NCBI RefSeq assembly: GCF_000016905.1
Contig: NC_009616.1
Span: 558,001 to 622,000, forward strand
Length of the DNA stretch: 64,000 bases
Direction of reading: 5' to 3'
From: Thermosipho melanesiensis BI429
GTDB taxonomy: Bacteria; Thermotogota; Thermotogae; Thermotogales; Fervidobacteriaceae
Below the pieces are notes generated by a model. That model searched no databases. It was not told the origin of the DNA and was given only the letters and a program-made list of their open reading frames with translations. The position numbers and the translations under genes are program-made. Shown piece by piece: positions 4,841 to 15,080 of the stretch; within the stretch, counting starts at the first letter, position 1, and the number at the start of each line of letters is the position of its first letter.

Positions 4841-4870
4841 TTTATTATATCACAACTGTGATATAATAAA
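4841..4870. promoter_or_regulatory. Divergent promoter made of two facing extended -10 boxes in a perfect palindrome
   Basis: Bases 4841-4854 and 4857-4870 are perfect 14-base inverted arms around a 2-base centre. The plus-strand half contains TG-A-TATAAT (TATAAT at 4862-4867), the minus-strand half the same (hexamer 4849-4844). The first should start mgsA, the second the MFS gene. The core TCACA-ac-TGTGA could also be an operator. Confidence 0.75.
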
Positions 4871-10775: not shown

Positions 10776-11555
10776 TTACACCTCCATTATTGTTGAATCT
10801 ACACATGCAAATGCATTATGATTATGTATTGATTCGTAGCTTTCCACCTCAACCTTAAACCAATTAATCTTTGGATTATCTTTTAACCTGATTGCTATAT
10901 CCCTTGCCACATCTTCAACAAATTTTGGATTTTCATAGGCTTTTTCTGTAACAAACTTTTCATCTGGTCTTTTTAACAGCGAAAATAAAGGAACACTTGC
11001 GGAATCTTCAGCAATTTCTATAAGTTCCTCAAACCATACAAGTTCAGAAGTTTCTACCTCTATCCTTACGTTCGCTCTTTGATTGTGTGCATTATATTTA
11101 CTTATCTCTTTTGAACATGGACACAATGTTTGAACTGAGACTTCAACTATTGTATAAAATTCACATTTTTGTGGACCATCATATGCACTAAAACCACATA
11201 AATATTCCATGTAGCTTTCTATTTTTGTTACAGGTGCTTTTTTCTTTAAAAAATACGGGAACATTATCTCAATTTTTGCACTTTGCGCTTTTAATGTTTG
11301 TTTTAAATCGTCTAAAATCTTTTTAATCGTTTTAGGGTCTATTTTTAAATGAAATTTGTTAAACACTTCCAAAAACCTGCTCATGTGCGTTCCTCTAAAA
11401 TCCTTTGGAAGATCTACATACATATTTATATCTGCTACTGTATTTTGAACCTTATTTTCCCTATCAAGCACCTGTACGGGATATTTCAATTTTTTTATTC
11501 CAACATGTTTTAATGGAATTTCTCTGGTATCCTTTTCACTTTGTACGTCCTTCAT
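10776..11555 (-). CDS. folE2: GTP cyclohydrolase IB
   Basis: A 259-residue GTP cyclohydrolase IB (FolE2), which converts GTP to 7,8-dihydroneopterin triphosphate at the head of folate and queuosine-type pathways, using a metal other than strictly zinc. The N-terminal VADINMYVDLPKDFRGTHMSRF is diagnostic. Residues 143-150 (TLCPCSKE, Cys145/Cys147) and the following AHNQR supply the active-site Cys and His. Near the end, NHNAFACVDS is also family-typical. It lies in a run with two bases between it and each neighbour. No other folate gene is in the window. Confidence 0.96.
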   Translation of the reverse strand: MKDVQSEKDTREIPLKHVGIKKLKYPVQVLDRENKVQNTVADINMYVDLPKDFRGTHMSRFLEVFNKFHLKIDPKTIKKILDDLKQTLKAQSAKIEIMFPYFLKKKAPVTKIESYMEYLCGFSAYDGPQKCEFYTIVEVSVQTLCPCSKEISKYNAHNQRANVRIEVETSELVWFEELIEIAEDSASVPLFSLLKRPDEKFVTEKAYENPKFVEDVARDIAIRLKDNPKINWFKVEVESYESIHNHNAFACVDSTIMEV

Positions 11556-11557
11556 AC

Positions 11558-11767
11558 CTACTTCCTTTCTAATAAATAATTTAGTTCGTCTAATTTGTTC
11601 TTTGTAATATAATCCTCAAACCTCACATCACCGTTTACAAACATCTCATACGCTTTATTTAACTTTTGCGCATATTCATATTTTTCCTTTACGTTTTCGT
11701 ATGAAAAAAATGTAAATAAAAACAATATTCCAAATACGGTAATGAGAATAAGGTAAAATTTCTGCAT
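11558..11767 (-). CDS. Small single-span membrane protein, unknown
   Basis: A 69-residue protein with one hydrophobic segment at residues 4-22 (FYLILITVFGILFLFTFFS) followed by a charged, helix-forming tail. I do not recognise the family; the layout (short N-terminus, one span, helical tail) is like small anchored proteins such as FtsL/DivIC, but there is no motif to support that. It is packed between the glycosyltransferase gene (4-base gap) and folE2 (2-base gap), which argues that it is a real gene in the operon. Confidence 0.7.
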   Translation of the reverse strand: MQKFYLILITVFGILFLFTFFSYENVKEKYEYAQKLNKAYEMFVNGDVRFEDYITKNKLDELNYLLERK

Positions 11768-11771
11768 TTAC

Positions 11772-13043
11772 TCACCCCATTTGTTTTTCAAAAAATTCTG
11801 GAAGAATTACATTTTCCTTTTCTATCAAATTCAGATATTCTTTTGCACACCTTTCCCATGTATACTTTTCCATTACTCTTTTATAACTTTCTTCGCTCAA
11901 TTTTTCGTAATTATCTTTTATTTTCAACGCTGCTTCCTTGAATTCTTCATGCGTTGAAACAAGATGCCCATACTTTCCGTTATCTAATATTTCTACAGGT
12001 CCCCCATTTCTTGTTGAAATCACCGGTAATTTACATGCCATTGCTTCTATTATTGCAAGGCCAAAAGGTTCATAATGTGATGTTAAGGCAAATATACCTC
12101 TATGTTTTGCTGCAGAGTTATATAACTTTGCCAATTCTTTTTGGGAAGTGATTACTAAAAATTTACCTTTAGCTTTTTTGGCTTTTTCAATTAATTGCCT
12201 TTCATATCCTGTGTATTCTTCCGGTTTTTTTCTCAGTACAATAATCAATTCAAAACCGTCTTTTAAATATTTGTTGAAGCTTTCTATAACAAATTCAATG
12301 TTTTTTTTTGGGTCTAACCTGCTTGAAACTATAATTGGCAGCTTTGAAAATTTATATTCATCTGTATCATCGGGATAAAAAATATTTGTATTTACCCCAG
12401 GTGGTATTACAAATATCTTATCTTTTATCTCAGGGTATACATCTATATACTCGTTGTGCGAATATTGTTCTTCTTTTTCTTGTTGTGTACTTGTTACAAT
12501 AAAACTTGCATATTTCATTGCAACCTTTTCCGCGCTAATCCTTATTGAAAACCTGTATCTTTCCTCTGCATCTTTTGCATTTTTGAATTTATCCTTTTTT
12601 TGTGCGCCGAGAGAATGAGCCGTAAACGAGTAAGGAATGTGGGTTAGTTTCTTAAACATTGCTCCTGCAATACCACCATCACCATAATGAGTAGTAACAA
12701 AATCTGGAAACCCTTCCTTTTGATAAAATCTATATATGTTCTTTACATATTCACCCAAAAAGTCCCATAATCTTTCCTTATTTAAAAATTTATCTCCTCC
12801 AAATGCAATTCTTACAATCCTTACGTTTTCAGCATCTGGGTAATAATCAAAGTCACCTGAAAACTCCGGCCATTTTTTGTCAATTATTTTTCTTGTAATA
12901 ATATCTACTTTATTCCCCATTTTTCCCATAGCTTTTGCTAATTCTTTAACATATATCAGTTGACCCCCAAAATCTGGGTGCTCCGTAAGGTGGCTATCTT
13001 TTTTGTCAAAATTTCCTTGTGGATTAAAGAACGCTATTTTCAT
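11772..13043 (-). CDS. GT4 glycosyltransferase, sucrose-phosphate-synthase-like
   Basis: A 423-residue retaining GT-B glycosyltransferase of family 4. The N-terminal half has HPDFGGQLIYVKELAKAM and TAHSLG, typical of sucrose-phosphate synthases. The C-terminal half has SSRLDPKKNIEFVIE and EPFGLAIIEAMACKLPVIS followed by TRNGGPVEIL, the nucleotide-sugar site. Expected reaction: transfer of a hexose from UDP-, ADP- or GDP-sugar to a sugar phosphate or polyol in the cytoplasm. The start is ATG 13043 behind GAGGTGG, not the longer TTG frame. It overlaps the sugar-kinase gene by 20 bases, so both likely work on one metabolite, perhaps sucrose or a compatible solute (inference). Confidence 0.88.
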   Translation of the reverse strand: MKIAFFNPQGNFDKKDSHLTEHPDFGGQLIYVKELAKAMGKMGNKVDIITRKIIDKKWPEFSGDFDYYPDAENVRIVRIAFGGDKFLNKERLWDFLGEYVKNIYRFYQKEGFPDFVTTHYGDGGIAGAMFKKLTHIPYSFTAHSLGAQKKDKFKNAKDAEERYRFSIRISAEKVAMKYASFIVTSTQQEKEEQYSHNEYIDVYPEIKDKIFVIPPGVNTNIFYPDDTDEYKFSKLPIIVSSRLDPKKNIEFVIESFNKYLKDGFELIIVLRKKPEEYTGYERQLIEKAKKAKGKFLVITSQKELAKLYNSAAKHRGIFALTSHYEPFGLAIIEAMACKLPVISTRNGGPVEILDNGKYGHLVSTHEEFKEAALKIKDNYEKLSEESYKRVMEKYTWERCAKEYLNLIEKENVILPEFFEKQMG

Positions 13044-13905
13044 ATCTTTCCACCTCTTCAAGATATTCTGATATATCCTTTAGTTTTACAACCCCTCCTA
13101 CTTCTCCAATAACATGCAATGAAATTATTGTTCCAAATAATGCCGCTTTAAATATTGAAAAGTTGTTTAATAATCCATAATAAATCCCAGACCAAAAAGC
13201 ATCTCCTGCTCCTGTTGTATCAACAACTTTTTTTGCTGGAATTTTTATATGTTCTATCTTTTTGCCATCTGAAACTAACGCACCTTCCTCTCCCATTGTT
13301 AAAATAACGTATTTTATTCCAAAATCGTGTAATAACTCTATATATCTTGTTCTTGGTAATGGCCCAAAAATTTCCCTAGCATCATCAAGTGAAGGCTTTA
13401 CAATAAAAGTATTTTTTAAAACCTCGTACACAAAATCAAGATTTATCTTTTTACATGGAAAAATTTTCTTCCTACAATTGGGATCAAATGCAATTTTAGT
13501 TTTAGTCAAAATATGTTTTATTTTTTCAATTCCATTTGTAATAGCCCAGCAACTTAAATGAATAAATTCAAATTTTTCAAAATCTAAGTTTGGAATTTCC
13601 AAGTTCATATCTTCATCTCTGTAAGGGATAAAATCAGGCGTACCTTTAGAAGCAAACACTATAACCGTAGAGGTATTTCCACTACCAACTTGTATGTAAT
13701 TGGTTTTAATATTTTCCCCTTCAAGCGTTTGAATTATTTCTTTTCCAAAAAAATCATTCCCCACCCTTGAAATTACCACCGTTTTTATGTTAAATTGATT
13801 TAAATTGCGTGCAATATTTAATGGACTTCCCCCTATTCTTTTAGTAAAATTTTCACCATCACTTGATATTAAATCTACTAAACTTTCCCCTATAAAAGCT
13901 ATCAT
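13024..13905 (-). CDS. PfkB-family carbohydrate kinase (fructokinase-like)
   Basis: A 293-residue ribokinase-fold kinase. N-terminus IAFIGESLVDLIS, substrate loop KRIGGSPLNIARNL, and near the C-terminus VDTTGAGDAFWSGI, the anion hole and catalytic Asp. Sequence style fits fructokinases; the exact sugar is not provable. The second of two adjacent ATGs (13905) has the better distance to GAGGTG; 13908 is the alternative. It is first in the minus-strand run and is transcribed from the symmetrical divergent promoter shared with dnaN. Coupling to the SPS-like glycosyltransferase suggests the pair interconverts a fructoside and fructose 6-phosphate. Confidence 0.92.
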   Translation of the reverse strand: MIAFIGESLVDLISSDGENFTKRIGGSPLNIARNLNQFNIKTVVISRVGNDFFGKEIIQTLEGENIKTNYIQVGSGNTSTVIVFASKGTPDFIPYRDEDMNLEIPNLDFEKFEFIHLSCWAITNGIEKIKHILTKTKIAFDPNCRKKIFPCKKINLDFVYEVLKNTFIVKPSLDDAREIFGPLPRTRYIELLHDFGIKYVILTMGEEGALVSDGKKIEHIKIPAKKVVDTTGAGDAFWSGIYYGLLNNFSIFKAALFGTIISLHVIGEVGGVVKLKDISEYLEEVERYENSVL

Positions 13906-13922
13906 CATATCACCTCTTTTTT

Positions 13923-13948
13923 ATTTTATCACAAATTTGTGGTAAAAT
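13923..13948. promoter_or_regulatory. Divergent promoter with facing extended -10 boxes (pfkB-like gene / dnaN)
   Basis: Bases 13923-13935 and 13936-13948 are inverted 13-base arms with one mismatch. Plus strand: TG-G-TAAAAT with hexamer 13943-13948. Minus strand: TG-A-TAAAAT with hexamer 13928-13923. The hexamers are only 14 bases apart, so polymerase can probably serve one direction at a time. Confidence 0.7.
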
Positions 13949-13979
13949 ATTAAGAAAAGACATTATAAGGAGGGATTTG

Positions 13980-15080
13980 ATGTTAAGTTTCCTAATAAAT
14001 AAAAGTGAATTAGAAAAGAAAATATCAGTAGCAGCAAATGCAGTAGGATCAAAGACAGTAGACCCTATTTTGCAGTGTCTGCTTTTTTCCCTTGAAAATG
14101 AAACACAAATATACGCCACAGATATGCAAACATTTGTCATCTCAAAATTAAATGTTTATGAAATTAACGGTAATGGAAAATTCGCAGTAGACGCAAAATT
14201 ATTAGAGGAAATAGTAAAAAACGTTGATACAGAACAAATATTGTTTAGCTATGATATGGGAAAACTCGTTTTAAAAAGTGGAAAAAGTTCATTTAATCTT
14301 TCAACACATTCGGAACCTGACAAATTCCCACAAATAGAATTAGAGGAATCTGGTATAAAATTTGAATTGGAAACATCAATATTATCAGAAATGATTGATA
14401 GAGTTTTATTTTGCGCTTCTACTGAAAGTGCAATGAGAGCTTTAAATGGAGTTTACTGGGAAGCAAAAGGTGGATATTTAAGGCTTGTTGCCAGTGATGG
14501 TTATAGATTAGCCTTGACAGAACAAAAAGTGAATATAGATGCGGATTTTGATTTCATACTTTCTTTAAAAAGCATGAAAGAGTTAGATAATTTAATTAAA
14601 CAAACTGATGAACCTATATTAACCGTAAAATTTGACCACAAAAAAGTATGGATAAGTGCCGGAGATATAACGGTTATAATGAGAATAGTTGAGGAGGTAT
14701 TTCCAGACTACAAAAGAGTTCTACCTAAGGTATTTAAAACAAGAATAATATTTAATAAAGAAGAGTTCCTTGAAGCATTGAAGAGGATAATGATAATCTC
14801 AAAAAGAGGCGATGAAAAAGTACGATTGCAAATCAATGACAATATCCTGGTATTAAACAGTCAAAGTCCAGAATATGGTGAAGTAAACGAAGAAATTTCC
14901 ATTGAACAAGAAGGAGAAGATTTATCCATAAATTTCAATCCAAAATTTTTAAACGAAGCTGTAAAAAAGATAGAAGAAGATGAGGTGGTTTTTAATTTTG
15001 TTGATGACCTTAGTCCTATGCAAATAAATTCAAAAGATGTTAACGAATATTTATATATTGTTTTACCAGTAAGAGCTTGA
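13980..15080 (+). CDS. dnaN: DNA polymerase III beta subunit (sliding clamp)
   Basis: A 366-residue beta clamp, which encircles DNA as a homodimer and tethers the replicase. Three repeated domains of about 120 residues are visible. Conserved pieces include LGV-type openings in domain 1 (ILQCLLFSLENETQIYATDMQ), ASDGYRLALTEQKV in domain 2, and the C-terminal peptide-binding end YLYIVLPVRA. ATG 13980 is preceded by AAGGAGGG. Neither dnaA nor recF is adjacent, so this dnaN is not in the classical origin cluster. It is followed by a prepilin-like gene with a short gap. Confidence 0.95.
   Translation: MLSFLINKSELEKKISVAANAVGSKTVDPILQCLLFSLENETQIYATDMQTFVISKLNVYEINGNGKFAVDAKLLEEIVKNVDTEQILFSYDMGKLVLKSGKSSFNLSTHSEPDKFPQIELEESGIKFELETSILSEMIDRVLFCASTESAMRALNGVYWEAKGGYLRLVASDGYRLALTEQKVNIDADFDFILSLKSMKELDNLIKQTDEPILTVKFDHKKVWISAGDITVIMRIVEEVFPDYKRVLPKVFKTRIIFNKEEFLEALKRIMIISKRGDEKVRLQINDNILVLNSQSPEYGEVNEEISIEQEGEDLSINFNPKFLNEAVKKIEEDEVVFNFVDDLSPMQINSKDVNEYLYIVLPVRA

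Follow-up and report, generated by a model that had tools for sequence, protein, structure and literature searches.

The 26-bp imperfect palindrome between dnaN and a divergently oriented operon in Thermosipho melanesiensis BI429 is very probably, on the sequence comparisons described here, a divergent pair of extended -10 promoters for the housekeeping sigma factor (TRTGNTAAAAT on each strand), with dnaN transcribed in one direction and the pfkB-GT-folE2 operon in the other. The palindrome occupies positions 13923-13948 of the window, that is, of the whole 64,000-nt stretch of DNA analysed. An earlier sequence-only reading had placed it between a sugar kinase operon and dnaN with 14 bp between the hexamers, and the sequence at these positions agrees. 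Symmetry extends over 12 of 13 pairs, and both halves consist of TGTGNTAAAAT, an extended -10 element that carries a TRTG motif. On each strand TG stands one base 5′ of the hexamer with TR before it, and the hexamer at both arms is TAAAAT, not TATAAT. On the left the palindrome is flanked by the PfkB kinase gene (minus strand, start at 13905 or 13908) and on the right by dnaN (plus strand, start at 13980). The features of the region are as follows; genes in the window, in the genome sample and beside the facing pairs were called with a simple script.

4844..4867, no strand assigned: second facing pair, ATTATATCACAACTGTGATATAAT, gap 12, between the genes for an MFS-type transporter (minus) and methylglyoxal synthase (plus)
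10776..11555, minus strand: folE2-type GTP cyclohydrolase I (PF02649, 322 bits)
11558..11767, minus strand: small ORF (69 aa) separating GT from folE2, matched by tblastn in 4 of 8 relatives
11772..13043, minus strand: sucrose-phosphate-synthase-like GT-B glycosyltransferase, GT (TIGR02472, 245.6 bits, under the cut-off of 576)
13024..13905, minus strand: sugar kinase of the PfkB family, encoded at the head of the divergent operon (PF00294, 149.4 bits; the top NCBIfam match is a fructokinase model, under its cut-off)
13911..13916, minus strand: Shine-Dalgarno sequence AGGTGA of pfkB, from the sequence
13923..13948, no strand assigned: ATTTTATCACAAATTTGTGGTAAAAT, the 26-bp imperfect palindrome, read from the sequence as two facing extended -10 elements
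13923..13928, minus strand: -10 hexamer TAAAAT of the putative pfkB-GT-folE2 operon promoter (ATTTTA in 9 of 9 genomes)
13930..13933, minus strand: TRTG (-16) motif of the putative operon promoter, in the form TGTG, from the sequence
13938..13941, plus strand: TRTG (-16) motif of the putative dnaN promoter, in the form TGTG (all nine genomes have TGTG or TATG here)
13943..13948, plus strand: -10 hexamer TAAAAT of the putative dnaN promoter (found 30-39 nt upstream of dnaN in every one of nine genomes from genera g1, g4 and g5)
13967..13974, plus strand: Shine-Dalgarno sequence AAGGAGGG of dnaN, from the sequence
13980..15080, plus strand: dnaN, DNA polymerase III beta subunit, the sliding clamp (TIGR00663, 250.3 bits against a cut-off of 137.65; Pfam)

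The plus-strand promoter would drive dnaN and the minus-strand promoter the operon, transcription from each arm depending on its matching TGNTAAAAT. Since the hexamers are 14 bp apart, the -35 position of each promoter overlaps the opposite -10 element, and each promoter would rely on its extended -10 instead of a -35 box. The -35 positions match the consensus at 3/6 bases on the plus strand and 1/6 on the minus strand, against a background mean of 2.56, and a consensus promoter scanner that requires a -35 match reported neither arm; its hits between 13800 and 14100, where chance would give 1.7, were two other sites, including one on the minus strand at 13932-13904. From the usual spacing, transcription would start near 13955 (plus strand) for dnaN and near 13916 (minus strand) for the operon, which gives a predicted start-to-start separation of ∼39 bp and predicted leaders of ∼25 nt for dnaN and ∼11 nt for pfkB (8 nt if the start codon is that at 13908). 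With the hexamers so close the two polymerase sites overlap, and the geometry leads one to expect one-at-a-time occupancy, each bound polymerase excluding the other.

The TRTG motif was examined in a 464-kb genome sample made up of the window and 20 further stretches. The sequence TGNTAWAAT is found in the sense orientation within 120 nt upstream of 38 of the 154 sample genes with an upstream noncoding stretch of 35 nt or more; upstream of co-directional genes it occurs in 13/90 cases in sense and 0/90 in antisense. TR precedes TG in 22 of these 38 putative promoters, whereas within genes it does so in 13 of 125 copies. With TRTG on each strand and this preference of promoters for TR, the TCACA/TGTG centre of the palindrome would be the -16 motif of two promoters. 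Extended -10 promoters of Bacillus sigma-A with a TRTGn (-16) motif were reportedly described by Voskuil and Chambliss in 2002. They resemble the present elements in having TRTG one base before the hexamer and, presumably, a dispensable -35 box, and they differ in that here the hexamer is TAAAAT and two copies face each other. In the genome sample, the distance from hexamer to start codon was 16-21 nt in 11/38 cases and 24-43 nt in 23/38, with none at 22-23 nt and four outside both groups; these two groups recall the bimodal 5′ UTRs that the parts of PMC3636130 covered here describe for Thermotoga maritima. The same parts report that the extended -10 mode carries the most information in 63% of transcription units, and they describe a short 5′ UTR group of 11-17 nt and short promoter-containing intergenic regions, in all of which the RpoD promoters of T. 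maritima resemble those considered here; facing pairs, present here, go undescribed in those parts of PMC3636130. Among the papers listed by a literature search for this layout, none described facing extended -10 pairs in Thermosipho.

Such a palindrome might instead be an operator at which a dimeric transcription factor regulates dnaN and the operon together, a reading we regard as very unlikely. Its 12 symmetric pairs of 13 are what an operator would show; outside the two TRTGNTAAAAT elements, however, the symmetry amounts to just two A-T pairs, which chance alone would give in ∼8% of cases, and the palindrome would then be a by-product of two similar elements placed face to face. A whole-genome search for the 26-mer pattern with up to three mismatches returned a single genomic place. 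The window holds two facing TGNTANAAT pairs with gaps of 6-30 (mean 0.15, maximum 2, in 60 dinucleotide shuffles) and four 26-mers symmetric at 12 or more of their 13 pairs (mean 0.2, maximum 2, in dinucleotide shuffles). The other facing pair in the window, at 4844-4867, has orthologous gap-12 pairs in G012, G013 and G014. The same 14 bases between hexamers had been claimed for both cases, and this does not hold at 4844-4867, where there are 12; the centres of the two pairs are TCACAACTGTGA and TCACAAATTTGTGG.

The proposal that facing pairs form a recurring promoter class in this genome was borne out by searches of the whole genome in which TATAAT or TAAAAT was required on at least one arm. 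Facing pairs with gaps of 6-30 were found at 19 unique genomic places, while in a control with the patterns read backwards one of them matched once on each strand and the other not at all. The enrichment in divergent gaps that had been predicted was also seen. By a fixed rule 13 of the 19 pairs lie between a minus-strand and a plus-strand gene, as do all ten pairs with gaps of 8-16 (8, 10, 10, 12, 12, 12, 13, 13, 14 and 16), L027 being admitted to both counts through its tRNA, and divergent gaps make up 2.0% of the 464-kb sample. Four of the 19 pairs overlap called genes, L033 covering the first codons of one, and two (L037 and L040) fail the divergent rule on one side. A further 18 places have gaps of 31-61, and 7 of these pass the divergent rule. 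Among sampled divergent gaps a strict facing pair (gap up to 61) was present in just 5 of 32, so the layout is recurrent but in the minority. Matches were found in all 20 genomes of the family that were searched (171 forward against 7 for the control, and 174 reverse against 7). A stricter TATAAT version with gaps of 6-16 also had matches in all 20, with 60 forward and none for the control; it had matches in 0 of 11 genomes of a second family and 4 of 14 of a third, although base composition may account for some of the drop outside the family. The dnaN site would thus be one instance of a compaction of divergent gaps, with short leaders, that is common to the family. Unrelated genes, a tRNA gene among them, also have such pairs upstream, which argues against a dedicated operator. 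At the tRNA locus (L027, 1417-1525) 10 nt separate the end of the left arm of a gap-13 pair from a tRNA-Gln (CTG) gene, a distance that fits a real promoter on that arm, and orthologous pairs occur in G012, G013 and G014.

The -35 positions were compared between short-gap and long-gap pairs. Compared with TTGACA, the 20 short-gap arms (ten sites) score a mean of 2.5/6, the background being 2.56. For 15 long-gap sites picked by hand from 27 the mean was 3.37, with at least four matches in 13 of 30 arms against 2 of 20 short-gap arms (P 0.014) and at least five in 6 of 30 against 0 of 20 (P 0.07). When ten of the 27 were instead selected by rule the mean was 3.2, with at least four matches in 8 of 20 arms against the same 2 of 20 (Fisher P 0.065, Mann-Whitney P 0.0496) and at least five in three arms against none. 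Short-gap pairs may thus do without -35 boxes more often than long-gap pairs, though the contrast is only suggestive. TRTG is not more frequent at short gaps (14/20 arms, against 19/30 hand-picked long-gap arms) and is absent from 6 of the 20 short-gap arms. A fixed spacing, or a valley at gaps of 17-27 (one site here against ten at 8-16), was considered and rejected: in other genera 24 of the 74 strong sites among the matches listed fall at 17-27. Within the genus, by hand count, gaps of 17-20 occur in 2 of 21 orthology groups (P 0.054). Across 95 unique sites of G001-G011 among the matches listed, those of G012 being set aside, gaps spread over 10-36 with one more at 6, and with so broad a spread no spacing rule is claimed; nor is a peak at gap 12 in other genera (9 of 74 among the matches listed), a count that includes orthologues.

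That dnaN is transcribed from the palindrome, as had been supposed, looks right: TRTGNTAAAAT ends 30-39 nt before the dnaN start codon in each of nine genomes from three genera. The dnaN promoter alone might be real and the left half a chance or relic sequence, and in four g4 genomes the left ATTTTA does lack the TG of an extended -10. We think this very improbable, since the opposing ATTTTA stands before dnaN in all nine genomes, is an extended -10 in 4/4 genomes of the genus and lies at a fitting distance before a Shine-Dalgarno sequence, and since short facing pairs lie in divergent gaps in 10 of 10 cases. The operon here contains pfkB, the sucrose-phosphate-synthase-like GT, the small ORF, folE2, a 112-aa ORF, and genes for a GNAT protein and an M32 peptidase. 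Stretches from eight relatives, belonging to the genus and to two sister genera, all show dnaN facing away from this operon; in G015 the M32 gene matches in pieces only. In genera g2 and g3 dnaN lies downstream of a same-strand ORF in all ten loci read. The search for dnaN in G008 gave no match, and a protein search of genome contigs found no relative with dnaN alone and six loci with an alignment. In a g4 genome (G017 C23, locus L022) a second, divergent DnaN-like match was seen (34% identity, E 4.3e-47).

In G013 and G014 (L101 and L102) the operon lacks pfkB and GT, yet the palindrome is kept before the small ORF and folE2. The left arm therefore seems to belong to the operon irrespective of which gene comes first, and the left half looks like an operon promoter and not an operator of the kinase. 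By its gene content the operon is also more than the sugar-metabolism operon it had been taken for. The idea of a fixed 14-bp unit fared less well: gaps in the genome are 8-16 and longer, and at the dnaN site the gap is 14 in G000 and G012, 13 in G013 and G014, 31-32 in G015-G018 and 31 in G019. Eight of the ten short-gap sites have an orthologue in G012 whose gap is short as well, and in these sites centres and gaps drift (for example 13, 14, 12 and 12, 12, 15).

At one other site (1501-1527 in L119 and in L117, from G013 and G014) the sole two differences within the facing pair are mirror-image changes, C to T and G to A, at the base before TG, and when G000 is compared with G012 two sites show the same kind of mirror double change beside TG. 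Such changes would fit an operator, as would the symmetric layout at dnaN, which is kept in the four genomes of the genus that were searched; but in eight hand-tallied comparisons substitutions beside TG affected both sides in three, one side in two and neither in three, too few to show an excess. A regulator-binding class is expected to conserve half-site spacing and sequence at several targets. Here both the spacing (14, 13, and 31-32 in the sister genera) and the centre drift and the 26-mer occupies a single place, and the operator was rejected as the main explanation.

The promoter pair recalls the bidirectional promoters of Warman, Grainger and colleagues, in which, according to the parts of PMC10268837 covered here, one -10 region is shared and starts are 7-25 bp apart, most commonly 18. 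As described there and in the covered parts of PMC12825309, the likeness lies in pseudo-symmetric DNA, divergent transcription and a polymerase bound in one orientation at a time (expected here from geometry); at 13923-13948, in contrast, there are two separate -10 hexamers and the predicted starts are ∼39 bp apart, outside that definition. At most, then, 13923-13948 works like a bidirectional promoter. The covered parts of PMC12825309 also report that in Escherichia coli all five bidirectional promoters tested were too weak at basal level for competition, and that strengthening one direction brought competition about.

An addition to the divergent-promoter explanation would be that the short spacing has been selected as a switch, the polymerases blocking each other so that dnaN and the operon are reciprocally regulated. 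The overlap follows from the geometry, and the short-gap orthologues in G012 (8/10) are in keeping with selection. Yet the gap is not constant in length, being 31-32 at the same genes in the sister genera and, among the matches listed in other genera, 10-36 plus one at 6; the first genes of the operon change between relatives; and the E. coli promoters tested did not compete at basal level (PMC12825309, in the parts covered). We consider such a switch unlikely. Hardly less doubtful is the wider proposal that -35-less divergent pairs in Thermosipho and its relatives, with 8-16 bp between their -10 elements and the ground of each -35 thus occupied by the opposite -10, couple their transcription units through exclusive polymerase binding and without any regulator.

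Were coupling by exclusive binding true, synthesis of the clamp would be tied to a sugar and folate operon. The divergent-promoter explanation itself would account for striking palindromes in the AT-rich genomes of the Thermotogales as promoter pairs, not operators, and should stop motif finders from inventing regulons around them. Natural sites of many spacings, together with orthologues that differ in spacing, would offer material for learning when divergent polymerases interfere.
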